Positions 30,937-48,501 of a stretch of DNA of 64,000 nucleotides are shown piece after piece. The position numbers and the translations under genes were made by a program. Under the pieces are notes generated by a model. That model was not told the DNA's origin. It saw only the letters and a list, made by a program, of their open reading frames with translations, and searched no databases. The DNA is from Mycobacterium sp. UM_CSW (lineage in GTDB: Bacteria; Actinomycetota; Actinomycetes; Mycobacteriales; Mycobacteriaceae), in assembly GCF_000455205.1 (NCBI RefSeq), contig NZ_AUWQ01000001.1, forward strand, positions 167,837 to 231,836. Direction: 5' to 3'. Each line of letters opens with the position of its first letter. Within the stretch, counting starts at the first letter, position 1.

Positions 30937-31019
30937 GGCGCCTCCCGTGGGCGAAATCGACGACAACTGTGAGTCGGCTGATAATTGCATGCCAACCAGC
31001 TTCGGGTCCAAGGAATCGC

Positions 31020-32351
31020 TCAGATGCTGTGATAGCGGCGCAACGCTTCGGCGCGTTCGGCTCCGTGGTCGACGATCGGTGCCGGGTATCCCTGCGGCCG
31101 TTCGCCTTTCCTCAGGTGCGGGTCGTCGACTCCGCGCAATTCTGGAACCCAGCGCCGGATGTAGTCGCCGGACGGATCGAACTTCTCGCCCTGCGTGGTC
31201 GGGTTGAAGACCCGGAAGTACGGCGCCGCGTCGGTGCCCGATCCGGCGCACCACTGCCAGCCGTGCTGGTTGTTGGCCATGTCGCCGTCGACGAGCTGAT
31301 CCAGGAACCATTCGGCGCCCCACTGCCACGGCAGGTGAAGGTCCTTGACCAGAAACGACGCGGTGATCATCCGCACCCGGTTGTGCATGAAGCCGGTCTC
31401 GCGAAGCTGACGCATCCCGGCGTCGACGAAGGGAAACCCGGTTTGGCCGGCCTTCCAGGCCTCGAAGCGGCGCTTGGCGTCGGGCCCAGTGTCGGTGGGG
31501 ATGTCGTTGAACCGGCCGTTCCAGTTGTGCCACGCGCTGGCCGGCCGGTGATGCAGCACGTCGGCGTAGAAGTCGCGAAATGCCAACTCCCGCAGGAAGG
31601 CTTGCGCGCCGGCATCACGCAGGTCGAGGTCGGCGACCATGGTGCGGGGATGGATGCAGCCGAATTTCAGGTACGCCGACATCCGGCTGGTGCCCGCCCG
31701 GTCCGGCCGGTCGCGGTCCTGCCCGTAGCGCTGTAATCCGTTGTCCAAGAACGACTTCCAGAGCCGGCGTGCCGATGCCTCGCCCGCTGCCACGTCGAGC
31801 GCGGCGCCGGGGTCGGGGATCTGGCACTGCTCGATCCCCAGCCGCCCCGGATCGAGCCAGCGCGCGGAGGCGGCGCCCGATTTCGCCGGCGCCCGCCAGC
31901 CGACGTCGCGCCACTGGCGCAGAAACGGGGTGAACACCTGATAGGGGGAGCCGTCCTGCTTTGTGACGCGCCCGGGTGAAACCAGGTACGGCGAGCCCGT
32001 CGCCACCAACGGCACGGAATCCAGTGCGGCGCCGACACGTTGGTCGCGGCGCCTTCCATAGGGCGCGAAATCCTCCGAGATGTGCACCGACGACGCGCCG
32101 ATCTCCTTGGCAATGCGCGGGATCCACGTCTCGGGCCGTCCGCGGGTCATTAGTAGCCGACCGTCGAGGTCGTCGCGCAGGCGGCGCAGCGAGTCACCCA
32201 GGAATTGCAGCCGGCGCCGCCCCGACGAGGCCTCCAGCCTCGGATCGAGGACGAAGCAGGCGAGCACTTCCTCGCCGCTTTGGGCGGCGGCGGCCAGTGC
32301 GGGGTGATCGCGCAACCGCAGGTCGCGGCGAAACCATAACAGCGTCGGCAT
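31020..32351 (-). CDS. phr: Deoxyribodipyrimidine photolyase
   Basis: A 443-residue class I CPD photolyase, repairing UV pyrimidine dimers with blue light. The N-terminal antenna domain begins LLWFRRDLRLRDHPAL. The C-terminal FAD domain contains GTSRMSAYLKFG, WHNWNGRF, FPFVDAGMRQLRETGFMHNRVRMI and the signature DGDMANNQHGWQWCAGSGTDAAPYFRVFNP. All core FAD and dimer-binding elements are present. M. tuberculosis lacks this gene here. It lies 3 bases after tspO on the same strand, so one mRNA carries both. The control region is shared with marR. Confidence 0.95.
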   Translation of the reverse strand: MPTLLWFRRDLRLRDHPALAAAAQSGEEVLACFVLDPRLEASSGRRRLQFLGDSLRRLRDDLDGRLLMTRGRPETWIPRIAKEIGASSVHISEDFAPYGRRRDQRVGAALDSVPLVATGSPYLVSPGRVTKQDGSPYQVFTPFLRQWRDVGWRAPAKSGAASARWLDPGRLGIEQCQIPDPGAALDVAAGEASARRLWKSFLDNGLQRYGQDRDRPDRAGTSRMSAYLKFGCIHPRTMVADLDLRDAGAQAFLRELAFRDFYADVLHHRPASAWHNWNGRFNDIPTDTGPDAKRRFEAWKAGQTGFPFVDAGMRQLRETGFMHNRVRMITASFLVKDLHLPWQWGAEWFLDQLVDGDMANNQHGWQWCAGSGTDAAPYFRVFNPTTQGEKFDPSGDYIRRWVPELRGVDDPHLRKGERPQGYPAPIVDHGAERAEALRRYHSI

Positions 32352-32354
32352 GAT

Positions 32355-32834
32355 TCAGCGGTTGAGCCGCCAGATGTGGGTGGACAGGGCGGTGGCGAAG
32401 GCGCACCACAACGGGTAGGGGGCCAGGGCGGCGCCGGCCTTTCCGTCCGCCTGCGCGGCCCGGCGCGCGAGGTCGGCGCTGCTGACTGCCAGCGCCGCGG
32501 CGCCGAGCGCGGAGGCGCCGAGCTTGTGATAGCGGAAGAACAGCCAGCTCCATCCGGCGTTCAGCGACAGGTTCAGCCCGAGCGCCGCGGCGTAGCGGCG
32601 CGCCTCGTCGTGCCGCCCGGACGCGCGCAACCGGTCGATGACCACCGCGGACGTCGCCGCGATATCGGTGTAGAGCGCGGTCCAGACGACGGGGAAGGCG
32701 ACGCCGGGCGGCTGATAGGGCGGCTTGCGAAGCCGGGAATACCAGGCGGGCACGCGGCTTGGGCTGGCGACGCTTCCGGTGCCGGCGGCAACGGCGACGG
32801 CGAGGGTGGTCGCGGCCACGATCGACGGTTTCAC
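32355..32834 (-). CDS. tspO: TspO/MBR family protein (copy 1)
   Basis: A 159-residue five-helix membrane protein of the TspO/peripheral benzodiazepine receptor family, which binds porphyrins and can degrade protoporphyrin in light. Core motifs: WYSRLRKPPYQPPGVAFPVVWTALY, NLSLNAGWSWLFFRYHKLG and PYPLWCAFATALSTHIWRLN. GTG 32834 has GGAAG upstream and overlaps the stop of an mmpL remnant (GTGA). It is followed by phr. A second tspO lies at 36.5 kb. Confidence 0.93.
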   Translation of the reverse strand: MKPSIVAATTLAVAVAAGTGSVASPSRVPAWYSRLRKPPYQPPGVAFPVVWTALYTDIAATSAVVIDRLRASGRHDEARRYAAALGLNLSLNAGWSWLFFRYHKLGASALGAAALAVSSADLARRAAQADGKAGAALAPYPLWCAFATALSTHIWRLNR

Positions 32835-32998
32835 GCTCTGCTTCCTTTCGATTGGGTGGGATCGGTGGGCCACCAGATGCGGTCGCCGATGAGGGTGAAC
32901 AGCGCGGGGATGACCAGGGTGCGCACGACGAAGGCGTCGAGCAGGATGCCGAGGCCGACGATGATGCCCAGCTGCGTCAGCGGATCGTCCCAACTCAC
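32831..32998 (-). pseudogene. C-terminal remnant of an mmpL gene, coupled to tspO
   Basis: A 55-codon open frame starting GTG 32998 reads QLGIIVGLGILLDAFVVRT, then LVIPALFTLIGDRIWWPTDP, which is the final membrane helix and end of an MMPL transporter. No transporter sequence precedes it: an in-frame stop lies five codons upstream and then comes the marR promoter. It is therefore a leftover 3' end whose stop overlaps the tspO start, and it may now serve as a leader that couples tspO translation. Confidence 0.8.
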
Positions 32999-33014
32999 GC
33001 TACAAGTATTTCAG

Positions 33015-33038
33015 TGATTTAACCATTAATCAAGTTAA
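33015..33038. promoter_or_regulatory. MarR operator candidate (marR1 / tspO-phr)
   Basis: Interlocked inverted repeats: TGATT (33015-33019) with AATCA (33028-33032), and TTAAC (33019-33023) with GTTAA (33034-33038). The TTAACCATT...CAAGT segment recurs near the mmpL promoter (35812-35825). It lies between the marR gene and the divergent mmpL-remnant/tspO/phr unit. A TATGCT -10-like element (33058-33063) precedes marR closely, which would give a nearly leaderless marR mRNA. Confidence 0.6.
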
Positions 33039-33072
33039 CAATCTTGGTTTGGCGCGGTATGCTGCGATTCTG

Positions 33073-33546
33073 ATGGAAGCCACCACCGACCGTGTTCGGC
33101 TCGAGGCGCTGATCGCGGCCGACGCGCGTGCCCTGACCGCCGAATCCGACCAGATGGGTCGCGTCTTCGCCGCGGCGCACCAGTTGGGCCCCAGCGACTT
33201 TCGCGCCTTGCTGCATATTCTGGTGGCCGAAACGGCGGGAGCCCCGCTGACCTCGGGCGAGTTACGTCAGAAGATGGGCCTGTCGGCAGCGGCGATCACC
33301 TACCTGGTGGAGCGGATGATTAATTCCGGGCACATCCGCCGCGACACCCACGCCGAGGACCGCCGAAAGGTCATCCTGCGCTACTCGGATCCCGGGCTGG
33401 ACACCGCCCGCTCGTTCTTCACCCCACTGGGACTGCACACCCGAACCGCGCTCAACGACCTGCCCGACGAGGATTTGGCCGCGGCCCACCGGGTTTTCAC
33501 TGCGCTGATTGCCGCGATGCGCCACTTTCAGAGCGAATTGAGTTGA
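33073..33546 (+). CDS. MarR-family regulator 1
   Basis: A 157-residue winged-helix protein. The recognition region is LTSGELRQKMGLSAAAITYLVERMINSGHI, the wing is DRRKVILRYSD. It resembles MarR regulator 2 of the same island in length, helix order and sequence, so the two are paralogs. ATG 33073 is 10 bases after a TATGCT element. Divergent from tspO-phr and convergent with mmpL (50-base overlap), it is the best candidate to bind the TTAAC/GTTAA sites in this island. Ligand unknown; oxidised lipids or porphyrins are possible. Confidence 0.9.
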   Translation: MEATTDRVRLEALIAADARALTAESDQMGRVFAAAHQLGPSDFRALLHILVAETAGAPLTSGELRQKMGLSAAAITYLVERMINSGHIRRDTHAEDRRKVILRYSDPGLDTARSFFTPLGLHTRTALNDLPDEDLAAAHRVFTALIAAMRHFQSELS

Positions 33547-35740
33547 CCTCACTGAACGTTCGACGGTGCCATCGCGCCAGCCAGTCGGGCGCCCACCAGT
33601 TCCGGCCGCCGAGCACGTGCATGAAGGCCGGCACCAGCAGCATCCGCACCAGCGTCGCGTCGACCAGGACCGCGATGGTCAGGCCCAGTCCGAACATGCG
33701 CATGAAGGACACCCCGGCGGAAGTCAGGGCCGCGAACGAGATCGACATCAGCAACGCCGCGGCGGTGATCACCCGGCCGGTGCGCGCCAGCCCCAGCGCG
33801 ATGCTTTCGTCGTTGTCCGCGCGCGTTCGGGGCGAGTCCAGCCAGTACTCGCGGATCCGGGAAAGCAGGAAGACTTCGTAGTCCATCGACAGCCCGAACG
33901 CGATGCAGAACATCAGCACCGGGACGTTCGCCGCCAGCGTGCCGGTCGGCGTGGTGCCGGCCGCGCCCAGGTGCCCGTCTTGAAAGATCCACACCAGGGC
34001 GCCGAACGCGGCCGTCAGCGAGACCATGTTGAGCAGTACCGCCTTGATCGGCAGCAGCACGCTGCCGGTGAGGAGGAAGAGCAGCACCAGCGTCACGACG
34101 GCAATGAATCCGAACACCAACGGCAAGCGACTCGTAATGCCGCGCACGCAATCACGATTCGTTTGGGCCATCCCGGTGAACCGCGCCGGTTGGTTTCGCG
34201 GCGGTTCGATCGCGTGCAGCCGGTCCAATTGCGCCTCGGACGCCTCGGTGTAAAGGGGCGCGGCGCTGTCAATGGTCAGATAGGCGCTGCCGGTTGCCAT
34301 TCCGGTCGGGGCCGACGGCGGGCCGCTCGGCTTCCCGGCGACGAAGGTGCCGGTCGGCGCGGATACCGCCGCGACATCGGCAACGAGGGACAACCGCATG
34401 GTGTAGTCGTCCAGGTCGCTGGTGGTGAGGCCGGCTGCGTCGGGCAGGACAACCTTGATCTCATTACCGGTGCGAAAGTCGCTGCGGATTCGGTCGCTCA
34501 CGGCCCGCGCCGACGAGGACGTCGGCAGTACCCGATCGTCCGGATAGCCCCACCTGACGCCCAGGAACGGTGCGCCGAGGGCGAGCAGGACGGCGCTGAT
34601 CGCCAGACCGACCGGGATTGCCTGCCGCATCACCGCTTTGGCAATCCGATACCAGGAGCTGTGTTCCAAGGTCCGCGCCGGGGGTGCGGGGCGCCGGAGG
34701 AGCCGGCGGCCCAGCGTCCACATGTTGAGCGCGTCCAGACGGTCACCGAGCAACGCGATCGTCGCCGGCGCCAGGACCGTCGCCGCCAAGGCGGCAAACG
34801 CGACCACCGCGGTGCCGGCGTAGGCGAACGACTTGAGGAAGTACATCGGGAACAGCGCGGTTGCGGCCAATGCCAGGGCCACCGTGATCGCCGAGAACAG
34901 GACGGTGCGGCCGGCGGTCGTCACGGTCTTCACCAGCGCCTCGTCGTGGCCTACCCCCTGCGCCAGCTCGTCCCGGTACCGGCTGATGATCAGCAACGTG
35001 TAGTCGACGGCCAGGGCGAATCCCAACGCCGCCGTCACGTTGAGAGCGAAGATCGACACGTTGGTGACCAGGGCGATCGCGCGCAGCATGGCGAGCGAAC
35101 CCAAGATCGCGACTCCGCCCACCGCCACGGGCAGTGCCGCCGCGAGTATTCCGCCGAAGACCCACACCAGCGCGACGAAGCTCAGCGGTATCGCGATCAT
35201 TTCCATCCGCAGCAGGTCTTTTTCGGTCTGCTGGTTGACTTGTTGATAAACCAGCGCCGACCCTCCCGCTCGCACCGTGACGCCCTGATGGTCGCGCGTG
35301 AAACGCTCCGCCAGCGTCCGGGCGTGGTCGGGTGCACTGTTTTCGTCGCCCTTGAGTGCCGCCAGGATCATCGCGGTCTTTCCGTCGGCGCTGAACAAGC
35401 CCGGATTGGCCTGCGCGGCCCAGGGTGAGGTCACCTGTGCGACGAAAGGCGATTGGGAAAGCTGCTGGACAATGTCGGTGCCGACGGCCTGTGCGGCCCC
35501 GTCTCTGGCGCCGTCCGACGAACTCACCAGCAGAACCAAATCCATGCCGCCCTGGTCGAACTTCTCGGCCAGCGTCGCGGCGGCGCGGGCCGATTCGGAT
35601 GCCGGATCGAGAAATCCTCCGGCGGACAGCCTGGATGCGGCCGGTATGCCGAAAACCGCTGCGGCAATCACGAATACGACGGTGATGCCGATGATCCGTC
35701 TTGGCGCGGTGACGGCGAGTCGGGCGATTCGCGTTAGCAT
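33497..35740 (-). CDS. MMPL-family RND transporter
   Basis: A 747-residue transporter with two RND halves, each with one helix, a large outer loop and five helices. RND marks: ALAVDYTLLIISRYRDEL in half one and GLSMDYEVFLLSRIREYW in half two, with the final helix block GLTIAVLVDATLVRMLLVPAFM. It lacks the long coiled insert of siderophore-type MmpLs and resembles MmpL11-like and actinobacterial MMPL proteins. In the carotenoid island it could move pigment or a lipid to the outer envelope. It is divergent from the SOUL-tspO-idi unit and overlaps marR1 at the 3' end. Confidence 0.9.
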   Translation of the reverse strand: MLTRIARLAVTAPRRIIGITVVFVIAAAVFGIPAASRLSAGGFLDPASESARAAATLAEKFDQGGMDLVLLVSSSDGARDGAAQAVGTDIVQQLSQSPFVAQVTSPWAAQANPGLFSADGKTAMILAALKGDENSAPDHARTLAERFTRDHQGVTVRAGGSALVYQQVNQQTEKDLLRMEMIAIPLSFVALVWVFGGILAAALPVAVGGVAILGSLAMLRAIALVTNVSIFALNVTAALGFALAVDYTLLIISRYRDELAQGVGHDEALVKTVTTAGRTVLFSAITVALALAATALFPMYFLKSFAYAGTAVVAFAALAATVLAPATIALLGDRLDALNMWTLGRRLLRRPAPPARTLEHSSWYRIAKAVMRQAIPVGLAISAVLLALGAPFLGVRWGYPDDRVLPTSSSARAVSDRIRSDFRTGNEIKVVLPDAAGLTTSDLDDYTMRLSLVADVAAVSAPTGTFVAGKPSGPPSAPTGMATGSAYLTIDSAAPLYTEASEAQLDRLHAIEPPRNQPARFTGMAQTNRDCVRGITSRLPLVFGFIAVVTLVLLFLLTGSVLLPIKAVLLNMVSLTAAFGALVWIFQDGHLGAAGTTPTGTLAANVPVLMFCIAFGLSMDYEVFLLSRIREYWLDSPRTRADNDESIALGLARTGRVITAAALLMSISFAALTSAGVSFMRMFGLGLTIAVLVDATLVRMLLVPAFMHVLGGRNWWAPDWLARWHRRTFSEVNSIRSESGASRQSAQ

Positions 35741-35801: not shown

Positions 35802-35831
35802 GTTAAGATTCTTAACCATTCAAGTACTTAA
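35802..35831. promoter_or_regulatory. TTAAC/GTTAA sites between mmpL and the SOUL operon
   Basis: GTTAA (35802-35806) and TTAAC (35812-35816) are inverted around 5 bases. They are followed by CCATTCAAGT shared with the marR1 operator region, and by AGTACT. The sites sit 62 bases upstream of the mmpL start and about 90 bases upstream of the SOUL gene, so a MarR bound here could control both directions. Otherwise 35741-35921 shows no gene. Confidence 0.55.
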
Positions 35832-35921: not shown

Positions 35922-36521
35922 GTGAGCAGTGTGTTCGGGTCGATGGGAGCCATGATCGGCGGGGTGATCGATGCGGCGGGGTCGGTGGTCGGCTACCGCC
36001 ACCGCACCGAGGAGCCGGACTACACCGCGGAGCCGCTGACCCGGGATGTCGAGCTCCGGCACTACGGTGCCCGGATCGCCGCGGAGACGACCGTCGTCGC
36101 GGACGAAGAGGCCGCCCGCTATGCCGGGTTTCGCCGACTCGCCGGTTACATATTCGGTGGCAACCGCGTCCACGAGAAGATCGCCATGACCGCCCCGGTG
36201 GCCCAGGAGGCGGCGGGCGAGCGCCGTTGGGTGATCCGATTTTTCATGCCTGCCGAAAAGACGCTGGACTCACTGCCCCAGCCTGACGACGGAGAAGTCA
36301 GGCTGGCGACCGTGCCGCCGGAGACGGTTGCGGTGCACCGCTTCACGGGCAGCCGCAGCCGGCGTGCCGTCGCTGCGCACACCGCCAGATTGCTGACCGC
36401 GCTGCGCGAGACCGGATTCGCCGCCGTCGACACGCCGACCGCCTGGTTCTACGATCCGCCCTGGACCGTTCCGGCGCTGCGCCGCAACGAGATTGCCGTC
36501 CCGGTGGAGCCGACGGCCTGA
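35922..36521 (+). CDS. SOUL-family heme-binding protein
   Basis: A 199-residue SOUL/HBP protein. The core [40 protein letters not shown] and a C-terminal [24 protein letters not shown] define the family, which binds heme or other tetrapyrroles. An N-terminal hydrophobic helix ([20 protein letters not shown]) may attach it to membrane. GTG 35922 with AAGGAACGAG upstream. It is first in a unit followed by tspO (2-base gap), idi and the glycosyltransferase. Confidence 0.9.
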
Positions 36522-36523
36522 CC

Positions 36524-37027
36524 ATGCGCCCATCGACACTTCTTGCCTCCGCCGCGGCGGTGATCGCGACGTCAACGGTGGGCGGCCTCGCGACCCGCCC
36601 GGCGGCCCAGTCGGTGTGGTACCGCCAACTGCGCAAACCCACCTATCAGCCGCCGCGGTCGGTGTTTCCCGTCATCTGGCCGGCGTTGTACGCCGACATC
36701 GCGGCGGTGTCCGCGGTCACCCTCGACCGGCTGCGCGACGGCGGGAACGCGCCGGCGGCCCGCTCCTACCTCGGTGCTCTGGTGATCAACCTCCTGCTGA
36801 ATGCCGGCTGGTCATGGGTGTTCTTCAATCGACGCCACCTCGGGGCTGCGGTCGCGGTGAACGCCGCGCTGACCGCGAGCAGCGCCGACCTGACCCGGCG
36901 CGCCATCGCCGTGCGCGGGCGGCGCGCGGTGTGGCTGTCGGCGTATCCCGCCTGGTGCGCGTTCGCCTTCGCCCTGTCCGCCCACATCTGGCTGCTGAAT
37001 CGCCGCCGCAGGATCGACGCGCCGTGA
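36524..37027 (+). CDS. tspO: TspO/MBR family protein (copy 2)
   Basis: A 167-residue TspO paralog. [34 protein letters not shown] matches copy 1 closely, as does [19 protein letters not shown] and [16 protein letters not shown]. All five helices are present. It lies between the SOUL gene and idi, with a GTGA overlap to idi. Two TspO proteins and one SOUL protein in one island strongly suggest tetrapyrrole sensing or disposal linked to pigment genes; in Rhodobacter TspO controls carotenoid and photosystem genes. Confidence 0.93.
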
Positions 37028-38070
37028 CGGCCGACCGCGGCGAGATGGCCACCCGCAAGCGCCGCCACATCGACGTGTGCCTCGACGGCGACGTCGGCTA
37101 TCACGGCCTGACGACCGGCCTGGAACGCTACGCCCTGCCCTACAACGCCCTGACCCAGACCAACCTTGCCGACATCGACCTGCGCACCGAATTTCTCGGC
37201 GCGCGGTTGCGGGCCCCGATTCTGATCGGCGCCATGACCGGCGGGGCGAAGCTGTCTGGCACCATCAACCGCAACCTGGCCACGGCCGCGCAACGGCTCG
37301 GCATCGGAATGATGCTGGGCTCGCAGCGGGTGATGCTGGACAGCGCGCTGGGGGAGCAGGCCGCCTCCAGCTTCACCGTGCGCGACATGGCGCCGGACGT
37401 GCTGTTGCTGGGCAACATCGGCCTTTCCCAGTTCACCAAGGACGCGGTGCCGGACATCGTTCGAGCTCTCGACCGGGTGGGGGCGAATGCGCTTGCGGTG
37501 CATACCAATCCGCTGCAGGAGGCCATCCAGCGCGATGGCGACACGGACTTCGCCGGATCGCTGGACCGGTTGCACGACGTGGCCGGCATGCTGGGCTACC
37601 CGGTGCTGTTGAAGGAGGTCGGTCACGGGATTGGCGGCGCCGCGATCGGCCAGCTGCTGCGCTCGTCCGGGGAGCTGCCGGTGGCGGCCATCGATGTGGC
37701 CGGCGCCGGCGGCACCTCGTGGTCGCGCGTCGAGCAATTGGTCCGGTACGGCGAAGTGCGCTACCCCGACCTGGCGGACTGGGGCATACCCACCGCGCAG
37801 GCGATTGGGGAGGTGCGCGCGGCGCTGCCCGAGATCCCGCTGGTCGCCTCGGGCGGTATCCGGACCGGCATGGACGCGGCCAAGGCGCTGGCGCTGGGCG
37901 CCGACGTGGTGGCCGTCGCCCGGCCGCTGTTGCCGGCGGCGATCGAGTCGGCGGCCGCGGCGACCGCCTGGCTGCAGCGATTCATCGACGAGTTCCGCAT
38001 CTGCCTGCACGGGTGCGGCGCGGCGGAGGTGAAGGCGCTGCGAGACGTTGGCCTGACGCCTCTTTCGTAG
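37024..38070 (+). CDS. fni: Type 2 isopentenyl-diphosphate delta-isomerase
   Basis: A 348-residue FMN-dependent isomerase interconverting IPP and DMAPP. Marks: [10 protein letters not shown] at the N-terminus, [18 protein letters not shown], the phosphate/FMN loop [24 protein letters not shown] and [23 protein letters not shown]. It supplies DMAPP for GGPP synthesis. GTG 37024 overlaps the tspO stop, so translation is coupled. This enzyme type is unrelated to type I Idi and is commonly found in actinobacterial carotenoid clusters. Confidence 0.93.
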
Positions 38071-39902: not shown

Positions 39903-40334
39903 CTAGCGCGACGTGCTGCGCGCCGGAAAAGAACCTACCCGAGCCGTCGCATGACCACTTCTCGAGTTCCGCCGCCTTTTCGCCAGGGCGATCCATGACG
40001 TCACGGCGGCGAGGAAGGCGATGGTCTGCACGGTACCGGTTCGGCCGGCCGGGTAGACCACACCCGCGACGTAACGGTCGACGAACCCGGTGCTGGGCAG
40101 TGGCGTCATGCCGGCTCGTAATCGTGCCCAATCTTCCAGGGAAGTCAGCGGACACGGCACGGGCAGCGTCACGACCGCCACGCCCCAGCACACGCTCGCC
40201 AGGTGCAGCCAGATGGTGCGGGGCCACCGCAGCGCGAGGAAACCACCGCAGGGCACGTAGCAGAGGTAGGCGAAGTGCGCGCCCACGCTGAGCGTCACGA
40301 GGCACTTAAAGCAGGCGAAATGCGCTTTCGTCAT
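39903..40334 (-). CDS. DUF2784 membrane protein
   Basis: A 143-residue protein with four predicted helices. CPLTSLEDWARLRAG, TGFVDRYVAGVVYP is the DUF2784 signature, found in small membrane proteins of unknown role. ATG 40334 lies 47 bases after the Rieske gene. Placed in the carotenoid transcription unit, it may help membrane insertion of pigment enzymes, but nothing in the sequence proves that. The C-terminal tail (RSGHATARVGSFPARSTSR) is hydrophilic. Confidence 0.8.
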   Translation of the reverse strand: MTKAHFACFKCLVTLSVGAHFAYLCYVPCGGFLALRWPRTIWLHLASVCWGVAVVTLPVPCPLTSLEDWARLRAGMTPLPSTGFVDRYVAGVVYPAGRTGTVQTIAFLAAVTSWIALAKRRRNSRSGHATARVGSFPARSTSR

Positions 40335-40381: not shown

Positions 40382-41374
40382 CTAGCCACCCGTGCGAAGT
40401 CGATACCGGCGTTCGGCGTAGGCCAGGTCGTCGCGCCACAGCCGGTTCGAGGCGTAGCGCATCAGCGGTGTGATCAACGGGGCCGCCCGGCGCGCCGTCT
40501 TGAAACCCGGGCGTTGCGACGTCGCGACAGTGGCCTCCAGGACGGCAACGCGCGGCATGCCGTCGTGTCCCAAACCCATTGGCGTCGCGTGGGTTTCGAC
40601 GACACTTCCCGTCCCCTCGCCCTCGATGATGCGCATGACGACCGTGCGCGCGTCGGGGGTGGTGAATTCGGCGATGACGGGCACGCCGAGGCGACCCATC
40701 CGGAAGGTGACCGAGACCAGGAAGCGGTCGTCTTCCTCGGTCGGGGTGGTGAGCACCTCCAGTCGGGTGAACGAGTAGGGGTGGAACCACGCACCGTGCC
40801 AGGGATCGAGCCGGTTGGCGAGGACGTCGGACGGTTCGCAGCGACCGACCACGCGGGTGACCGCCGTCAAGGTGTCAACGGAAGGCCTAGGCACCACGAC
40901 CGGCCGATCCGTCGGAGCCTCTGCACCAACCGAATCGAGACGCACCCACGCCAGCGCGCCGTCGTCGTGGCTGGGAAACGGCTGCCAACGCAATTCGCAT
41001 GTTTTGCCGTCGAGCGCCAGCCCGTGCCATCGGCAGTACAGGACGCCCTTGCGCACCAGGCCGGTCGCCAGGTCGGCGCCCAGGTGCGGGCAGGTTGCGG
41101 GACCGACCAGCAGCCGGCCGTGCTCGTCGCGCCAGGCAACCAGGTCAATGCCGCCGACCCGCGCCCCGTGGGCGTGACCGGTGCGCACGTCGCGGCTCGC
41201 GGCAAACGCGAACCAGTTTCCGGTCGCCCGGCGCCCCGACCGCGCCAACGCGGCGTTGATGATGCCCGGCTGCGCGTCGCGGTAAGTCGGGCGCTGCTGT
41301 GTCCATGAGACACGCGGGATTACGCCGACCGGCCAGTCTTTCCAGCGCCGGCGCAAGCGGTCGCCGACGCTCAT
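40382..41374 (-). CDS. Rieske [2Fe-2S] protein with DUF5914-like domain
   Basis: A 330-residue protein. The Rieske cluster ligands are Cys95-x-His97 and Cys114-x2-His117 (CPHLG, CRWHG). A C-terminal domain (about 150-320) contains DPWHGAWFHPYSFTRLEV and a lipid-binding-like fold. Such proteins are common beside crtU in actinobacterial carotenoid clusters; the oxygenase would hydroxylate or ketolate a ring or aromatic carotenoid. The second-domain iron ligands cannot be confirmed by eye. ATG 41374 overlaps the crtU stop (ATGA). Confidence 0.85.
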   Translation of the reverse strand: MSVGDRLRRRWKDWPVGVIPRVSWTQQRPTYRDAQPGIINAALARSGRRATGNWFAFAASRDVRTGHAHGARVGGIDLVAWRDEHGRLLVGPATCPHLGADLATGLVRKGVLYCRWHGLALDGKTCELRWQPFPSHDDGALAWVRLDSVGAEAPTDRPVVVPRPSVDTLTAVTRVVGRCEPSDVLANRLDPWHGAWFHPYSFTRLEVLTTPTEEDDRFLVSVTFRMGRLGVPVIAEFTTPDARTVVMRIIEGEGTGSVVETHATPMGLGHDGMPRVAVLEATVATSQRPGFKTARRAAPLITPLMRYASNRLWRDDLAYAERRYRLRTGG

Positions 41375-42879
41375 CGCGGCCGCGCCAGTGACCGCAGCAG
41401 CGCGGACCGCCCGCGGGTGGGGACGGTGCACAGCGCGTGGCCGGCAATGCCCCACGATGCCAGCAGCTGGTTGGCGGCCGACCATCCGGTGGTGGCCGCC
41501 CGTTCCATCAGCGCGACCGGCAGGTCGACACGGATCCCGTCGCCGGCCAGCACCAGCCCGGGCTGCGGGGTGGCCACCGTCGGCCGTTGCGGGAAGGTTC
41601 CCGGTGCGAACAGGGGGCAGTCGTCGCGGCGCAGCACGCGTTCGTAAGCGACCCGGGCCCCGGCCGTTTCGGGATACAACTGGTGCAGCCGGCCGATCGC
41701 GGCCCGATCGGGGGATTGGGAACTGGCCGCGTAAGAGTGCAATTCGACGACCGACCCGCGGTGTTGGCGTGCCCACACCGCGGCCTCCCGTTCGTAACGC
41801 TCCAGCACGCTGATGTTGTCGACGGGCGGATGACCGGCCGTGCCGAGAAAAGCGGGCCGGTCCGAATCGACGGCCTTCTCCAGCCATAGCCGGTGCACCA
41901 CGAAGGACGGCGCGGTGCGCAACCGGCGTATCCGGGCGCGCCACGGATCGTCGCCAAGGCCGGCAGACGCCGCCACCACGCGCTGCAGGCCGCCCACGTC
42001 GAGCGCCAGCACCACCGCGTCCGCGTCGTAGCGATCGCCCGACTCGGTATGGACGTCAAAGGTTTTCGTGGTTCCGGGCGTGACACAGGACGCTTGCGTG
42101 CCGAGGTGCATCCGAACTCCCCGCTCGCGCAGGTAGTCCCCCAGCGGATTCCACAGGCTCACTTGAAAGTTCGCGGTGGCGACGTCGAAGATCAGGCCCT
42201 CGCTGGAACCGAGGAAATAAATGTGGAACATGGTCGCCAGCTCCGCGGCGGACAATTGTGCCGGCTCGGCGAAGAAGCTGCGGGAGAACACCTCGAACGC
42301 CAGGTGGCGCGCGGACTCGGGAAAGTTGATGCTCTTCAGGAAGGTTTCCGCGTCGATGTGGTCGAGCCGCCGGTAGATGTCGGGCACCGACACCGCCGCC
42401 AGCGGCGCGGCGGCCCGGCCGTTGATGCGCACCAGGTCGCCGAGTGAAAATGTCGGGCTGCGCAATGCGAATGCCAGTGCGTTCCAGGGCGGGGTGCGTG
42501 GCAGTCCGCGAAAGGTGTCGCGCCGTCCTGCGCCGTCGATCAGTGGGTAGTCGCTGACCGGGGCGAGCATGCGCAGCCGCGGATCGACCCGGCGGAGCAG
42601 CGCGCGCAGGTTGTAGTACTGGCGGAAGAAGGCGTGGAATCCGCGGTTCATCGCGAACTCGGCGCCGTCGTGGTGTTCGGTCCAGCCGCCCACCCGGCCG
42701 CCCAGGTAGTCCTCGCGTTCGACGACGTCCACCGAGACGCCGCGTTCGGCGAGCGCGGTGGCGGCCGTCAGGCCGGCGATCCCGGCGCCCACCACGACGG
42801 CGCGCGGCCGCGACGACAGCGCGCCCGCGTCGGCCAGGCCGGCTGTGGCGGGGTGAACGCGCCGTCTCCGGTCGGTCAT
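41371..42879 (-). CDS. crtU: Carotenoid desaturase/methyltransferase (isorenieratene-synthase type)
   Basis: A 502-residue FAD-dependent protein. FAD motif AVVVGAGIAGLTAATALAERG is at about residue 27. Marks of CrtU are EFAMNRGFHAFFRQYYNLRALLRRVDPRLRML, MFHIYFLGSSEGLIFDV and the C-terminal GLVLAGDGIRVDLPVALMERAATTGWSAANQLL. CrtU turns beta-ionone rings of beta-carotene into aromatic rings (isorenieratene). ATG 42879 overlaps the methyltransferase gene stop. Order crtT-crtU downstream of the cyclase genes resembles the Streptomyces crtTUY group. Confidence 0.88.
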   Translation of the reverse strand: MTDRRRRVHPATAGLADAGALSSRPRAVVVGAGIAGLTAATALAERGVSVDVVEREDYLGGRVGGWTEHHDGAEFAMNRGFHAFFRQYYNLRALLRRVDPRLRMLAPVSDYPLIDGAGRRDTFRGLPRTPPWNALAFALRSPTFSLGDLVRINGRAAAPLAAVSVPDIYRRLDHIDAETFLKSINFPESARHLAFEVFSRSFFAEPAQLSAAELATMFHIYFLGSSEGLIFDVATANFQVSLWNPLGDYLRERGVRMHLGTQASCVTPGTTKTFDVHTESGDRYDADAVVLALDVGGLQRVVAASAGLGDDPWRARIRRLRTAPSFVVHRLWLEKAVDSDRPAFLGTAGHPPVDNISVLERYEREAAVWARQHRGSVVELHSYAASSQSPDRAAIGRLHQLYPETAGARVAYERVLRRDDCPLFAPGTFPQRPTVATPQPGLVLAGDGIRVDLPVALMERAATTGWSAANQLLASWGIAGHALCTVPTRGRSALLRSLARPR

Positions 42880-43601
42880 CGCGGCGCCTCCCCGAGGAAC
42901 GTGTGGACGACGTTGCGCTCCCAGCCCGGCATCGTCTCGCTGCGCACCCGGGTGAAGCCGGCGTCGCGCATCCGGCGCCGCAACCGCGCCGCCCCGTCGA
43001 ACGCGAGGACGCTGCGCCACAGGTGCCGGTAGAGCGCCGTGTCCCGGGTATGCCACCAGCCGGCGGGGACGATGATGCCCCAACACACCGCGTGCCAGAC
43101 CAACCTCGCCGCGATCGAATCGCGCACCGAGTATTCGTGCATCGCCAGTGTCGCGCCGGGGGCGAGCAGGGCGCGAAACGCTCGCAGCTGGCCGTCCGGA
43201 TCCGCGAGATTGCGCAGCAGGTAGGCGGCCAGGATGCCGTCGAACGGTCCGGTGACGCCGCATTCCTCCAGTTCTTCGACGCGCGCGTGCACGAACCGCA
43301 CCGACGGCGGCCACGCCTTCGCCCGTGCCACATCGAGCATTCCGTTCGCGGCGTCAACCGCGACGATCTCCGCCTCGGGCGCCGCCGCCAGCAGCGCGGC
43401 CGTCGACGCGCCGGTGCCGCAGCCCGCGTCGAGCAGACGTAGGCCCCGGCCGCGTCCGGGCAGCCGCATGCGGCGCGCCGACAACGCCAGGTTCGCGTGG
43501 TAGTACGGGTTGGCGCCGACCAGCCGGTCGTATGCCGCGGCGCCGGCGTCGAAGGCGCCGGGCACCTCGTTGCGGGGCAGACCCGCCTTATCGGCGCGCA
43601 C
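42876..43601 (-). CDS. crtT: SAM methyltransferase of the carotenoid operon (CrtT-like)
   Basis: A 241-residue class I methyltransferase. Motif I LRLLDAGCGTGAS is followed by AEIVAVDAANGMLDVARAKAWP and GILAAYLLRNLADPDGQLRAFRALLAPGATLAMHEYSV, as in UbiE-like enzymes. The end REDVVHTF-like GWERNVVHTFLG is typical of the Streptomyces CrtT group beside crtU. GTG 43601 overlaps the 3' end of crtYd; the frame is open to 43691 but that part is out-of-family. Its substrate is unproven; CrtU itself does the ring methyl shift, so this enzyme may methylate another position or a quinone. Confidence 0.85.
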   Translation of the reverse strand: MRADKAGLPRNEVPGAFDAGAAAYDRLVGANPYYHANLALSARRMRLPGRGRGLRLLDAGCGTGASTAALLAAAPEAEIVAVDAANGMLDVARAKAWPPSVRFVHARVEELEECGVTGPFDGILAAYLLRNLADPDGQLRAFRALLAPGATLAMHEYSVRDSIAARLVWHAVCWGIIVPAGWWHTRDTALYRHLWRSVLAFDGAARLRRRMRDAGFTRVRSETMPGWERNVVHTFLGEAPR

Positions 43602-43899
43602 GTTGTCGCTCCCACAGCAGCAGCACCGCGGTGACCAGCGCGAAGCCGAACAAGAAGTCCTCGACGGGAATGTCGAACGGAAACCGCACACCGCCGGTGT
43701 GCCGCTCGTTGTAGATCACGATCGGGGCGCTGCGTTTCGTCAGCCAACCGTCGACCAAAACCTGAAAGCCGAGCACGATCACCATCGACACCCAGTAGGC
43801 CGGCCGCCGAAACAGGTTGGTGCGCAACAGCGCAAACTCCAGCGCGACGACGACCAGGACGGCCGCCACGGCCGGCACCGTATAGCCGAGCCCGGTCAT
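43588..43899 (-). CDS. crtYd: Lycopene cyclase, subunit CrtYd
   Basis: A 103-residue protein with three predicted helices, one half of the actinobacterial heterodimeric lycopene cyclase. FRRPAYWVSMVIVLGFQVLVDGWLTKRSAPIVIYN, FPFDIPVEDFLFGFALV carries the conserved acidic PVEDF motif also seen in CrtYc as PIEEV. ATG 43899 overlaps the stop of crtYc, and its own end overlaps the methyltransferase start, so both are translated in a tight chain. Confidence 0.9.
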   Translation of the reverse strand: MTGLGYTVPAVAAVLVVVALEFALLRTNLFRRPAYWVSMVIVLGFQVLVDGWLTKRSAPIVIYNERHTGGVRFPFDIPVEDFLFGFALVTAVLLLWERQRARR

Positions 43900-44219
43900 C
43901 GGCGTCTGCCCCTTTCGAGGATGGTGGTCACCGCGTTGTAGGTCAGCACGGCGCACACCGGAATCACCAGGAAGAACAGCACTTCCTCGATCGGCACCCC
44001 GAACGGAATGTGCAGGCCGGTGATGTATTCGCAGTTGTACGTCCACACGCCGTTGGCGACGGCCACCGCGTCCCAGACGAGGAACACCGCCGCGACCGGA
44101 ATGACCGCGCGGGCCAGGCGGCGCGGTTGGCGGTAGACACCGGCGCCGAACAGCTCGAGCGGCGCGGTGATCGCGAGGCACAGGCCCAGGACGATCAGGT
44201 ACTGCCAACGGTCGCTCAT
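43896..44219 (-). CDS. crtYc: Lycopene cyclase, subunit CrtYc
   Basis: A 107-residue membrane protein with three predicted helices, partner of CrtYd. WDAVAVANGVWTYNCEYITGLHIPFGVPIEEVLFFLVIPV is the family core with PIEEV. Together the two subunits cyclise lycopene to beta-carotene. ATG 44219 overlaps the crtB stop. Confidence 0.9.
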   Translation of the reverse strand: MSDRWQYLIVLGLCLAITAPLELFGAGVYRQPRRLARAVIPVAAVFLVWDAVAVANGVWTYNCEYITGLHIPFGVPIEEVLFFLVIPVCAVLTYNAVTTILERGRRR

Positions 44220-45157
44220 GACGCGGTCTTCATCCGGGCCCGCCACGACCGCACCAGCGCGCCACCGGCGACCCGAAGCCGCCGCGCCGTGCCGACGGTG
44301 GCCCGCTGCGTGAACACCGAGAAATCGCTGGCCTCAATGCGATCCAGGATTTCGGAGTACAGCGTCAACGCGGTCGCCACGCACGGCCGGGACCGGGGCG
44401 CCAGCAGGGCGATCCCGTCGGCGGCGAAACGGTAGATCTCGCGAGTGATCTGGTGCTGAGCCGCCAGGGCGGAGCGGACTTTAGCGTCGGTGCGCCGGTG
44501 CACGTGGCACCACATCATGAGGTCGCGGTCCACGCCGAAGGCGGCGAGTTCGTCGGTCGGCAGGTAGATCCTGTTCCGCGCCAAGTCTTCGTCGACGTCG
44601 CGTAGGAAGTTGGTGAGCTGAAACGCGCGGCCCAGCGCCGCCGCGTACGGCGCGGCGTCGTCGGCGGTGACGGCCGGGCCGGCGGTCCCAAGCACCGGAA
44701 GCATCTGCAGGCCAATGACTTCCGCGGAGCCACGCATGTATCGGTTCAACGCCGCCCGGTCGGGATAGTCGGTGACGGTGAGATCCATGCGCATGGAGTC
44801 CAGAAAATCCGCGAACAGGTCCGCGGGAATCCCGTAGCGACGCGCGGTGTCGGTGACGGCAGCGAGGATGGGCTCGTCGTGGTGGTCGCCCCCGTCGAAG
44901 AAGCGATCCGATAGCCGCTGCAGCCGGTCCGCCCGCTCGGAGACGTCCAGGGCCGGGTTGAGCTCGTCGAGGATGTCGTCGGCGTGGCGGGCGAAGCCGT
45001 ACAACGCGTGCACGGCCGGGCGCTGGTCGGGGGCGAGCAACCGGGTGGCGAGGAAGTAGGTGCGGCCGTTCTCGGCGGCGATCCGCCGGCACCGCCGATA
45101 GGCCGCGCGCAGCCGGTCTTCGTCGATTCCGGCGGCGTCCAATTCGGTCCGGATCAT
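44216..45157 (-). CDS. crtB: Phytoene synthase
   Basis: A 313-residue squalene/phytoene synthase joining two GGPP to phytoene. The two Asp-rich Mg sites are ARHADDILDEL and LRDVDEDLARNRIYLP; YFLATRLLAPDQRPAVHALYGFARHADD is the N-terminal signature. ATG 45157 overlaps the crtI stop in ATGA. All catalytic motifs are intact, so the pathway should be active. Confidence 0.95.
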   Translation of the reverse strand: MIRTELDAAGIDEDRLRAAYRRCRRIAAENGRTYFLATRLLAPDQRPAVHALYGFARHADDILDELNPALDVSERADRLQRLSDRFFDGGDHHDEPILAAVTDTARRYGIPADLFADFLDSMRMDLTVTDYPDRAALNRYMRGSAEVIGLQMLPVLGTAGPAVTADDAAPYAAALGRAFQLTNFLRDVDEDLARNRIYLPTDELAAFGVDRDLMMWCHVHRRTDAKVRSALAAQHQITREIYRFAADGIALLAPRSRPCVATALTLYSEILDRIEASDFSVFTQRATVGTARRLRVAGGALVRSWRARMKTAS

Positions 45158-46683
45158 CGCGATCCCGCTTTCAGGTCGAGCGTTCGGGTCGTCGTCCGCG
45201 TTGCGGCGCCGGTGATGCGGTCGGCGGCCAACCGCCCGGAGATCAGCGTGGTCGGCACGCCGACCCCGGGCAGGGTCGACGACCCGGCCAGCACCGCGTT
45301 CTCGATGCCGCGCACGGTGTTCGCCGGCCGGAAGGGCCCGGTCTGGGCGAACGTGTGGGCCCACGCGAACGGCGTGCCCGCCGCCATGCCCTGGCGGGCC
45401 CAGTCGGCCGGGGTGTCGACGTGCAGCAGCTGGGCGTCGTCGCGCACGCCCGGCAAGAGCCGGTCCTGCACGATGTCGAGGAGGGAGTCCGCGTATGCGC
45501 CCCCGGTGGCCGACCAGTCGATCTCACCGCGCGACAGGTTGGGGGCCGGCGCCAGCACGTAGAGCAAATCGCGGCCGGCGGGGGCCAGACTCGGGTCGCC
45601 GGCCGTCGGCCGGGTCACCAGCAGCGAGGGGTCGGCCATCAGCCGGCCGTCGCGGATGATGTCGGTGAACGTCTGCTCCCACGCCGAGCCGAAAAGGATG
45701 CTGTGGTGGGCGTTTTGCGACGCCACGGCGCGGCAGCCCAGGTGTAGCACTACCGCCGAGGGCGCCGCGCGCAGTGGAAGGATCCGGCGCGGTTGCCGGC
45801 CCAGCAGGCGGTACGCCTGCGGCAGTTCGGTCGTCAGTACCACCGCGTCGCAGTCGATGCGCGCATCCCGGTCGGTGTGGACGGCGGTGATCCGCTGTCC
45901 GCTGCGCTCCAGCCGGGTGACCGTCGACCCGTAGCGGAACCGCACCCCGGCGTCGGCGGCCGCGGCCGCCAGGGCATCTGGCAGCGCCCGCACGCCCCCG
46001 CGCGGGAAGAACACCCCGGCGACCGTGTCCATGTACGCGATCACCGCATACACCGCCAGGGCGTGTTGCGGCGCGACACCGGCGTAGAGCGACTGGAAGG
46101 TGAACACCCGGCGCAACCGGGGATCGCTGATGTGGCGCTTGACCATCGTGTCCCACCGGCGGAACCCGCCGAGTGCGGCCAACCGCGCGAGCTGGGGAGT
46201 CAGCAGCGACAGCGGGGAGTCGAAGTTGGCGGCGATGAAGCCGTCGAATTCCGTGCGATACAGCCGGTTCAACCAGTCGCGCAGCCGCCGGTAGCCGTCG
46301 GCCTGCTGTGGTCCGGCGAACTCGCTCACCGCGGCGGCCATCCGGTCGGCGTCGGTGTGCACGTCGATGGCGCTGCCGTCGGCGAACAGCGCCCGGTAGG
46401 CCGGGTCGACCGGGAGCAATTCGACTCTGTCCGAGGCGGTTTCGCCCACTGCGGCGAACGCCTCGTCGATGATGTCGGGCATCGTGAGCACCGTCGGGCC
46501 GGTGTCGATGTGGTAGCCGTCGACATCGCGCCGGCCTGCCCGGCCGCCGGGCCAGGCTTGGCGCTCAACCACGGTGACCTGACGGCCTCGGCCGGCGAGG
46601 TGCAGCGCGGCGGCAAGCCCCGCGAATCCCGCGCCGACCACGACGACGTGGTCGGTGCGCCCGGACACCGTGCGGATGCTCAT
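45154..46683 (-). CDS. crtI: Phytoene desaturase
   Basis: A 509-residue CrtI enzyme converting phytoene to lycopene. FAD motif VVVVGAGFAGLAAALHLAGRG is at about residue 13, followed by ERQAWPGGRAG. The C-terminal desaturase signature is present as NTVRGIENAVLAGSSTLPGVGVPTTLISGRLAADRI. ATG 46683 overlaps the crtE stop. The CrtI-like protein at 10.5-12.1 kb is a distant relative with a different context. Confidence 0.95.
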   Translation of the reverse strand: MSIRTVSGRTDHVVVVGAGFAGLAAALHLAGRGRQVTVVERQAWPGGRAGRRDVDGYHIDTGPTVLTMPDIIDEAFAAVGETASDRVELLPVDPAYRALFADGSAIDVHTDADRMAAAVSEFAGPQQADGYRRLRDWLNRLYRTEFDGFIAANFDSPLSLLTPQLARLAALGGFRRWDTMVKRHISDPRLRRVFTFQSLYAGVAPQHALAVYAVIAYMDTVAGVFFPRGGVRALPDALAAAAADAGVRFRYGSTVTRLERSGQRITAVHTDRDARIDCDAVVLTTELPQAYRLLGRQPRRILPLRAAPSAVVLHLGCRAVASQNAHHSILFGSAWEQTFTDIIRDGRLMADPSLLVTRPTAGDPSLAPAGRDLLYVLAPAPNLSRGEIDWSATGGAYADSLLDIVQDRLLPGVRDDAQLLHVDTPADWARQGMAAGTPFAWAHTFAQTGPFRPANTVRGIENAVLAGSSTLPGVGVPTTLISGRLAADRITGAATRTTTRTLDLKAGSR

Positions 46684-47816
46684 GCGGCGCGCCGGGTGCA
46701 CAGGGCCGCCATGTCGACGAGCGCGGCGGTGAGCGCGCCGTCGACGATGTTGCCGTCCAATGCCTTGAGAGCCGCCTCGACGCGATCGGCGATCAGTTCT
46801 TCGATCAGCCGCACCGCCCCGGTGGCCAGGATGAGGTTCCGCCACTGGTCCAGTGCGGAATCGTCGAGCCGATCACCGCTCATGAATTGGCGAAACTGCC
46901 GACGGGTCGACGCGTCGGCCAACTCGTGCGCGGCCACCACGACGCTGGTGGCCTTGCGCTCGATCAGGTCCCCACCGTTGGGCTTCCCGGTCACCGCGGG
47001 CGACCCGAAGATGCCCAGGATGTCGTCGCGCAGCTGGAAGGCTTCGCCGATGGCGGTGCCGTAGTCGCCTAACGCGTCGAGCACCCGGACGTCGCACCCG
47101 GCCATCGCGGCGCCGATCTCCAGCGGTCGGCGCACGGTGTAGTTACCGGACTTGCGCCGCGCCACCTCCAGAACGGCCTGCATCGTCGGTAGGTCCCGCA
47201 TATCGGTTGCCAGGTCGGCGAACTGGCCCACCGCCAGCTCGGTACGCATGGCGTCGTAGCGTGGCCACGCCTTGAGCAGGTGGTGGCGCTCGAGGCCGCT
47301 GTCGCGCAGCATCTGCTCGGCCCAGATCAAACACAGATCGCCGAGCAGGACGGCGGCCGATTCGCCGAACCGCCGTGAGGAGCCGGACAGTCCGCGGCGG
47401 CGATGCCAGGTGGCGAATTGCAGGTGCGCGGCCGGGCGCCCTCGCCGCGATGGCGAATTGTCCATGACATCGTCTTGCAGCAGCGCAAACGCGTGCAGCA
47501 ACTCGAGGCTGGCGGTAGCCGACAGTGCCGCATGGCTGGGCCGTTGGCCGCACAACCAGCCCAGATACATGAACATCGACCGCAGGCACTTGCCGCCGTT
47601 GACGAACTCCAGCAAGATGTCGCCGGCCACGTCGACCCCGCAGTCACCCAGGGCGTCGTGGCATCGCTCCGCGACGAATCCGGTGACTTGATCCAGCACC
47701 GCCCGCCGCAGACTCGTACGCCAGGCGTCCAATTGGTCTTTGTCGGGCAGGCACATCGGGCCGACCGCCTCCCACGAAACGTCCGTCAGCCGCCGGCTCG
47801 AAAGGCTCGGATTCAC
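46680..47816 (-). CDS. crtE: Geranylgeranyl diphosphate synthase
   Basis: A 378-residue polyprenyl synthase making GGPP. First Asp-rich motif LLQDDVMDNSPSRRG and second motif FQLRDDILGIFG are intact, with GGKCLRSMFMYLG earlier. GTG 47816 has GAGGGG 8-9 bases upstream; GTG 47849 is in frame. It is first of a ten-gene chain (crtE-I-B-Yc-Yd-T-U-Rieske-DUF2784-marR2) in which nearly every junction overlaps by 4-14 bases. Its promoter region carries a strong inverted repeat at 47882-47913. Confidence 0.93.
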   Translation of the reverse strand: MNPSLSSRRLTDVSWEAVGPMCLPDKDQLDAWRTSLRRAVLDQVTGFVAERCHDALGDCGVDVAGDILLEFVNGGKCLRSMFMYLGWLCGQRPSHAALSATASLELLHAFALLQDDVMDNSPSRRGRPAAHLQFATWHRRRGLSGSSRRFGESAAVLLGDLCLIWAEQMLRDSGLERHHLLKAWPRYDAMRTELAVGQFADLATDMRDLPTMQAVLEVARRKSGNYTVRRPLEIGAAMAGCDVRVLDALGDYGTAIGEAFQLRDDILGIFGSPAVTGKPNGGDLIERKATSVVVAAHELADASTRRQFRQFMSGDRLDDSALDQWRNLILATGAVRLIEELIADRVEAALKALDGNIVDGALTAALVDMAALCTRRAA

Positions 47817-47881
47817 GCGTTGATACCCCTCTGGTGACGAAACAAACACCGGGCGACGGCCAACGACTCGGCCGGCGCCGC

Positions 47882-47913
47882 TCAGTTAAGTTATTGAAAC
47901 ATTAACTTACTGA
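47882..47913. promoter_or_regulatory. Operator candidate upstream of crtE
   Basis: TCAGT-T-AAGTTA and TAACTTACTGA are an inverted repeat around the 9-base spacer TTGAAACAT, with a single bulged T. Within it GTTAA (47885-47889) and TTAAC (47902-47906) repeat the half-sites seen at the marR1 and mmpL promoters. It lies 66 bases upstream of the crtE start in a strikingly AT-rich patch. The rest of 47817-48003 shows no gene. Confidence 0.65.
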
Positions 47914-48003
47914 ATGATCGAGCGGTACGCCAGTGCTGGCGGACATGCGCTGTGCTGTCGCTAGCCCGTGCGGTGAGGTGCGTCGCCCGACGCCGTTATG
48001 GCC

Positions 48004-48501
48004 TCAGGAGGGGATGGCGGCGGGTTGCGCCGGCTCGTGCCGGTGTCGCCGATCCGCGACGATGCCCGAGAGCAACTGGCGCCTGGCCTTGACGATGTCG
48101 TCGAGGAGCTGCAGGGCTTCGGCCACCGATCCCACCACCTGCAAACCGTGGTCGGTGATGATGTGCAGCAGCGGGCGCATCGCAGGGCCGGCGACCACGC
48201 TGCAGTGCACCCGCGCCTGGCGATGCTCGTGGTTGAGCGACAGCAGCGCCCGGAAACCGTCGAGGCTCAAAAATTCCAGCTGGCTCAGGTCGAGGATCAA
48301 CGGGGTTTTCAGGCGGGAGAAACGACGGATCGTCTGGGCGAACTGGTCGGCATTCGACGCGTCGATCTCGCCATCGACGCGCAGGACGGTGCCCAGGCTG
48401 CGCGCATAAACGTAGAGCCGCGCGCCGTCGAAGTCGGCCATGTAGCGGCAGCTGGCGGGTTGTTTGTTCTGGGGTAGATCCATGGAACGGTGAGCAGTCA
48501 T
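48004..48501 (-). CDS. STAS-domain protein (anti-sigma factor antagonist-like)
   Basis: A 165-residue protein with one STAS domain at about 30-130: LRVDGEIDASNADQFAQTIRRF and PLILDLSQLEFLSLDGFRALLSL, where the Ser in LSLDG stands at the phosphorylation position. Such proteins free sigma factors from anti-sigma factors in stress responses. It lies 187 bases upstream of crtE on the same strand, so it might link stress signalling to pigment, although no partner anti-sigma gene is present. ATG 48501 is preferred; starts at 48510 and 48579 are in frame. Confidence 0.8.
   Translation of the reverse strand: MTAHRSMDLPQNKQPASCRYMADFDGARLYVYARSLGTVLRVDGEIDASNADQFAQTIRRFSRLKTPLILDLSQLEFLSLDGFRALLSLNHEHRQARVHCSVVAGPAMRPLLHIITDHGLQVVGSVAEALQLLDDIVKARRQLLSGIVADRRHRHEPAQPAAIPS

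Follow-up and report, generated by a model that had tools for sequence, protein, structure and literature searches.

A stretch of 64,000 nucleotides from Mycobacterium sp. UM_CSW (contig NZ_AUWQ01000001.1, positions 167,837 to 231,836; hereafter the window, whose own numbering is used throughout) was analysed for an island of photolyase, TspO, SOUL, MarR, MmpL and carotenoid (crt) genes, and for a palindrome that recurs in the control regions of this island. All the genes listed in a preliminary description of this DNA (phr, two tspO, SOUL, two marR, mmpL, fni, GT1 and the crt chain) were found at or near the places where it had put them, as judged from a listing of open reading frames (ORFs), from codon-position base composition and from Pfam and NCBIfam scans. 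The island is bordered on one side by DUF4333 and hexapeptide genes, and on the other by a DUF1731 epimerase gene followed by genes for a GT4 glycosyltransferase and a GH57 branching enzyme.

According to gene direction and spacing, the minus-strand pair tspO1-phr diverges from the plus-strand marR1 at around 33.0 kb. The phr product (31020..32351, minus strand) possessed PF03441 and PF00875 above cut-off and had class I photolyases as its best PDB sequence matches; it was assigned at the level of the class I photolyase family because the scores of the curated NCBIfam equivalogs were not reached (TIGR03556, 340.7 vs 884.6 bits; NF007955, 312.6 vs 506). Upstream of it, tspO1 (32355..32834, minus strand; PF03073, 121 bits for a cut-off of 24) is preceded by what is left of an mmpL2 gene, 44 codons from its C-terminal end (32849..32980, minus strand; 88.6% identity to a relative). 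A TspO-MmpL fusion, considered for an ORF of 212 amino acids, was rejected, as the MmpL remnant lies in a different frame and the extension is hence a chance open frame, which places the inferred TspO1 start near 32834. On the other side, marR1 (33049..33546, plus strand; likely start ATG 33073) scored above the cut-offs of the MarR_2/MarR Pfam models.

A second divergence, at around 35.8 kb and defined in the same way, separates mmpL1 on the minus strand from SOUL-tspO2-fni-GT1 on the plus strand. The MMPL transporter gene mmpL1 (33497..35740) encoded a protein approximately 67-73% identical to the crt-adjacent MmpL of kansasii-like genomes. The SOUL heme-binding family protein (35922..36521; PF04832, 145 bits for a cut-off of 27) had heme-binding proteins 2 and 1 as its closest PDB relatives, and is followed by tspO2 (36524..37027; PF03073, 98.8 bits for the cut-off of 24), the two tspO genes being the sole PF03073 matches in the whole genome. 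The unit continues with fni, encoding a type 2 isopentenyl pyrophosphate isomerase (37051..38070, approximate start; TIGR02151, 337 bits for a cut-off of 281.3), and ends with an MGT-like GT1 glycosyltransferase gene assigned by domain scans (38081..39343). An ARAGORN call of a tRNA-His within fni (37875-37961) is probably spurious.

The remaining genes, crtE-I-B-Yc-Yd-T-U-Rieske-DUF2784-marR2, formed a single minus-strand chain with gaps of at most 52 bases under the chosen starts. It comprised crtE (46680..47816, approximate start; polyprenyl synthetase family), crtI (45154..46659; phytoene desaturase family, TIGR02734 with 533 bits for a cut-off of 238) and, by domain scans, crtB (44216..45154; squalene/phytoene synthase family), the lycopene cyclase subunit genes crtYc (43896..44246) and crtYd (43588..43905), a Rieske-DUF5914 gene (40382..41380) and the gene of a DUF2784 membrane protein (39903..40334). 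The CrtT-like methyltransferase (42876..43691) and the CrtU-like amine-oxidase-fold protein (41371..42876) were named from fold and position; a CrtU model was absent among the best 25 of 65 NCBIfam matches, whose top match, HpnE, scored under its own cut-off. The chain is closed by marR2 (39308..39850; MarR_2 and MarR above Pfam cut-offs), which faces fni-GT1.

Each of the three island control regions harbored one copy of a 29-bp palindrome with the consensus TTCAGTnnnTTAAnnnTTAAnnnACTGAA, discovered by comparing the 40-base segments of highest AT content that precede crtE, tspO1, fni, mmpL1 and SOUL, both in the window and in whichever of 60 fetched loci carry these genes. The predicted operators were operator A between tspO1-phr and marR1 (33010..33038; 18/20 consensus positions), operator B between mmpL1 and SOUL-tspO2-fni-GT1 (35803..35831; 16/20) and operator C upstream of crtE (47886..47914; 18/20). 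The next best place in the window scored 12, and the best score per shuffle in 30 Markov shuffles was 11-13. A degenerate form, TTNANNNNNTTAANNNTTNANNNNNTNAA, had exactly three matches in the 6.39-Mb genome, namely operators A, B and C; as it was derived from sites already seen, the fit of the three sites is given by construction, but their genome-wide exclusivity is not. A search allowing two mismatches added one distant place, but yielded nine matches for the backwards control pattern, and its result was left unused. A promoter-like TTAACA-17-TATGCT (33035-33063) overlaps the end of operator A and stops 10 bases before the likely marR1 ATG at 33073. Scans of sigma-70 promoters and terminators barely exceeded shuffles (3 vs a mean of 1.3, and 11 vs 8.8, respectively), and of their hits this overlapping sequence alone was taken into account.

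The exact form of the operator occurred in 73 of the 148 sampled genomes of the genus according to the complete per-genome count table, and the backwards pattern in one. Across the family, 28 of 401 genomes possessed it (24/52 inside the genus and 4/349 outside), with a backwards match in five. Two of the four extra-genus matches, both from one neighbouring genus (L204, G148:C17:228613; L205, G178:C258:4676), were good palindromes located between a MarR gene and an MmpL2-like gene, perhaps representing an older form of the switch; the remaining two resembled simple AT sequence. In 81 loci covering 1.06 Mb, window included, 106 sites scored at least 16/20 compared to none for the backwards pattern; at scores of 14-15 no excess was detected (20 sites vs 25 backwards), so that such sites carry no weight alone. 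None of the sites listed in these loci fell inside a matched gene. Of the sites in 79 named loci that were retrieved through their similarity to MarR2, 168 scored at least 15/20 (8 backwards); 157 of them pointed towards a gene match starting no more than 400 bases away, the other 11 did not, and one lay inside a match. These backwards-pattern controls, at the level of genomes and at both score thresholds, rule out a chance motif. Among 167 distinct sites scoring at least 16/20, hardly any variation was seen in the outer TT, in the A of position 4 or in most of the inner TTAA, a regularity helped by the score-based choice of the sites.

The nearness of sites and genes is partly built into the loci that were picked for their genes (L033-L092) or by MarR2 similarity (L113-L191), and the loci picked by the motif itself provide a sharper test because the others were chosen by gene content. 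In 23 of these 25 motif-picked loci (18/20 and 5/5), which are a selected part of the listed off-island places (those left out are, for example, in G019, G027, G035, G039, G054 and G146), marR1, an MmpL gene, fni or crtE adjoined the site. One exception was a site beside genes of unknown function (L107). At the other (L108, genome G134), sites at 3001-3029 and 5314-5342 each preceded a 216-codon gene by about 36 bases, and the first of these genes, scanned in this single genome, encoded a fasciclin-domain protein. Separate mmpL1 copies with an operator also occurred (L101:3501-3529 and L109:3501-3529) in genomes whose main islands are without mmpL1; the copy in L109 sits behind a second crtE-like gene.

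Overall, the operator recurred at the same promoters in relatives and still marked the units where these have split apart. Being shared by the three control regions, exclusive to the island and conserved, it lends good support from sequence to joint control by MarR, as the preliminary description had suggested in proposing one control network.

The two MarR proteins are paralogues with about 60% identity, and fell into two clades with 100/100 support each (80 rows, some being the same gene with another start; the tree, in which many genes were entered twice under both labels, was used for the two-clade split only). The nearest named matches of MarR2 were from Mycobacterium sp. E796 (98%), M. 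interjectum (93 and 95%) and M. paraense (93%). MarR2 was also 62-63% identical to the MarR encoded beside mmpL1 and fni in kansasii-like loci (L056, of genome G074, and L058), where the order is mmpL1-marR2-fni; the protein of L056 is the MarR of M. ostraviense (L056/L189), a member of the kansasii complex, and stands in for that of M. kansasii in this comparison. By gene position MarR2 corresponds to CrtR in the kansasii group, and it is a probable CrtR orthologue. In G074, both queries returned a single match to a CrtR-family MarR.

As for marR1, it adjoins tspO1 in the window and its near kin and is divergent from crtE in ten relatives (L033, L044, L048, L050, L052, L083, L086 and L090-L092), always with the palindrome in between; in the motif-picked loci, the site usually lay at most 50 bases from a marR1 match. 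A CrtR-family MarR was present in 99 (MarR1 query) or 100 (MarR2 query) of the 148 genomes. It occurred in 72 of the 73 operator genomes (all except G147) compared to 27 of the 75 without the operator, the other 48 having neither (Fisher p = 3.4e-18, ignoring descent). Neither MarR of the window contained a cysteine; 11 of the 80 rows had at least one, and no cysteine was invariant in the family alignments, which disfavours thiol-based sensing by these regulators.

The preliminary description had allowed that relatives might show these genes only separately, and this is not the case. The photolyase, TspO and crt Rieske genes were located within 15 kb in 25 of the 148 genus genomes, that of the window included, and 11 of these 25 also had SOUL. 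Photolyase and the Rieske protein were both present in 93 genomes, and within 15 kb of each other in 29 of them. These proximity counts drew on SOUL in 100 genomes, DUF5914 in 97, TspO in 130 of 136 with a match and photolyase in 127 of 128 (weak fragments excluded), and the figure of 25 is possibly too low, as contigs end within islands in, for example, G059, G061, G103 and G118. The phr-tspO-crt clustering is more than chance.

Partial versions of the island were found as well. At the same chromosomal site, between DUF4333/hexapeptide and epimerase/GT4 genes, locus L064 possessed only the marR1-mmpL2-tspO1-phr part, and in the kansasii-like genomes G026, G057, G074 and G091 phr, tspO1 and SOUL formed a cluster close to the epimerase or GT4 gene, with crt and mmpL1 elsewhere. 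In most of the fetched joined islands, mmpL2 heads the tspO-phr unit; since only 44 codons of it survive in the window, between operator A and tspO1, operator A is by descent the operator of the marR1-mmpL2 pair. Several genomes from another part of the genus (G040, G079, G102, G104, G114, G125, G133, G138, G146 and others) had an adjacent TspO-SOUL pair away from phr and crt, so that the link between TspO and SOUL is wider than this island.

Photochromogenicity, the development of colour upon exposure to light, has long been used in mycobacterial classification. In M. kansasii, 20 min of light induced only 14 genes, comprising crtE, I, B, Yc, Yd, mmpL1, crtR and fni; phrB, tspO and mmpL2; a PE gene; and two fasciclin genes, whose products are mpk83 and mpk70 (PMC9861118). 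Disruption of crtR strongly raised crtE, mmpL1 and fni, showing that CrtR represses them, and the same study proposed a diffusible ligand for CrtR that is made or oxidised by light, leaving as a question whether CrtR controls light genes beyond carotenoid metabolism, such as photolyase genes (PMC9861118). The crt, mmpL, MarR, fni, phr and tspO core is common to that light regulon and to the window (PMC9861118). In M. kansasii, however, the genes are distributed over two loci, CRT (crtEIBYcYd-mmpL1-crtR, fni) and photolyase (phrB-tspO-mmpL2), whereas the window has one island; it additionally possesses a second MarR, a second TspO, SOUL, GT1 and CrtT/CrtU/Rieske genes, and retains only a remnant of mmpL2 (PMC9861118). 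A single MarR and no operator are reported for M. kansasii, the words motif and palindrome being absent from the main text of that article (PMC9861118). Neither a second mycobacterial MarR of this system nor the 29-bp operator was found in the open-access literature. The preliminary statement that these parts had not been described as a system therefore has to be narrowed: a shared response of crt, mmpL, marR, fni, phr and tspO to light had been measured in M. kansasii (PMC9861118), and the novelty lies in the operator, in a second MarR, in the joining of the genes into one island and in the probable membership of SOUL and TspO2.

More distant systems show partial likenesses. Corynebacterium glutamicum has a MarR repressor gene next to a crt operon that includes an MmpL gene (crtR / crtE-mmpL-crtBIYeYfEb) and a light response (PMC5401885, PMC6739363, PMC7432914). 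Its CrtR is light-responsive and requires a TTAA core (PMC6739363, PMC7432914), within an AT-rich site resembling the window palindrome in both respects (PMC7432914, PMC6739363, PMC5401885), but no long palindrome was found by the authors (PMC5401885, PMC6739363, PMC7432914). In Thermus (LitR/LdrP) and Rhodobacter (RpoE and crtIB-tspO), carotenoid genes are likewise joined with photolyase or TspO in one response to light or singlet oxygen; the regulators are, however, of the MerR-B12, CRP and sigma factor types, none of which was listed among the scanned island ORFs (PMC5401885, PMC7074977).

Taken together, the island is probably a single light-protection regulon in which two CrtR-family MarR repressors act on a shared 29-bp operator. 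This reading is favoured because the operators are island-exclusive and conserved, the MarRs are paralogous, and the orthologous M. kansasii units are co-induced by light (PMC9861118). In the dark, MarR1 and MarR2 (= CrtR) would bind the predicted operators at the three control regions and hold off tspO1-phr/marR1, mmpL1/SOUL-tspO2-fni-GT1 and crtE-I-B-Yc-Yd-T-U-Rieske-DUF2784-marR2. Light would lift this repression, most likely by way of a small molecule that it makes or oxidises, and the derepressed cell would produce, all together, photolyase, an exporter, carotenoid as a quencher, isoprenoid precursor and proteins that bind tetrapyrroles. As both marR genes sit within units they are predicted to control, negative feedback would be expected.

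A diffusible ligand is likelier than a built-in photosensor or a thiol switch, because, among the scanned island ORFs, a domain of a type known to carry a light-absorbing cofactor is present in the photolyase alone, and because both MarRs are free of cysteine. The TspO and SOUL families bind tetrapyrroles, which makes a porphyrin photoproduct a fair candidate for the ligand; isoprenoid pyrophosphates are another. Repressor binding and release, the nature of the ligand and what TspO and SOUL do are all inferred, and the sensing or removal of porphyrins by the predicted TspO and SOUL proteins, like an aromatic carotenoid as end product, may be part of the same response. SOUL and TspO2 themselves are probable regulon members. 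A more far-reaching version, speculative and on balance doubtful, would join all these elements: the MarR pair, which has no conserved cysteines, would act as a light switch that lacks its own chromophore, with both proteins freed from one genus-specific operator by a porphyrin- or isoprenoid-derived photoproduct, and TspO and SOUL would remove the photosensitiser behind the signal. This would complete a feedback loop by which DNA repair, carotenoid synthesis and export are driven as well; the operator would reach fasciclin genes in one species or more, matching the third light locus of M. kansasii.

Several observations weigh against a single regulon, or at least against the operator as its full explanation. 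Of 37 upstream regions of crtE, 28 had a site scoring at least 16, four (L056, L058, L060 and L087) only a site at the background level of 14-15, and five (L039, L054, L068, L070 and L072) no operator. In the kansasii-like genomes G074, G091, G057 and G026, the mmpL2-tspO1-phr sites scored 17, 17, 15 and 18, while those of crtE reached 14, 15, 15 and none, respectively, and the fni site scored 14 in G091 with none of at least 14 in G074 (L056). The operator alone does not yet explain the known control of crtE and fni by CrtR in the kansasii group. In addition, the 27 genomes with a CrtR-family MarR lacked the exact operator, the counts ignore shared descent, the degenerate form owes its fit to the sites it was built from, and phrB of C. 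glutamicum is neither induced by light nor largely affected by CrtR (PMC6739363).

The deviating crtE sites of the kansasii-like genomes, the full support for two MarR clades and the status of operator B as the most divergent of the three would also suit two adjacent circuits with separate signals, MarR1 acting on tspO1-phr and mmpL1/SOUL and MarR2 only on crt and fni. This arrangement is unlikely, since the palindrome of these units is the same, ten relatives have marR1 next to crtE, and in M. kansasii a single brief exposure to light is enough to induce both sets (PMC9861118). Binding of CrtR to the mycobacterial operator remains a prediction, and the palindrome might instead be the site of another regulator, such as a global factor, with the MarRs as bystanders; SigF influences carotenoid production in M. 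smegmatis (cited in PMC5401885), and G147 combines the operator with no MarR match. Such a role is highly improbable given the MarR found in all but this one of the operator genomes, the short distance between motif-picked sites and marR1 matches, the same site between MarR and MmpL2 genes in the neighbouring genus (L204, L205), and TTAA cores that recall the one required by CrtR of C. glutamicum (PMC6739363, PMC7432914).

An origin as a switch of MmpL exporters, with light as one of several sources of ligand and with pigment and repair genes captured later, is a possibility, though not a likely one. A divergent marR-mmpL2 pair is all that the site serves at many of the motif-picked loci, as it is in the neighbouring genus; on the other hand, the units captured in this island are all light-related, and the signal known from M. 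kansasii is light (PMC9861118). Such an origin is compatible with a single light-protection regulon as the reading of the present-day island.

The precise operator gives a testable form to the question, raised for M. kansasii, of whether CrtR controls photolyase and other light genes (PMC9861118), points to MarR1 as a candidate second regulator, and predicts members of the regulon from sequence in the 73 genomes of the genus that possess it. Travelling with marR-mmpL, crt, fni and tspO-phr through joining and splitting, it clearly illustrates how a regulon can come together in one island.

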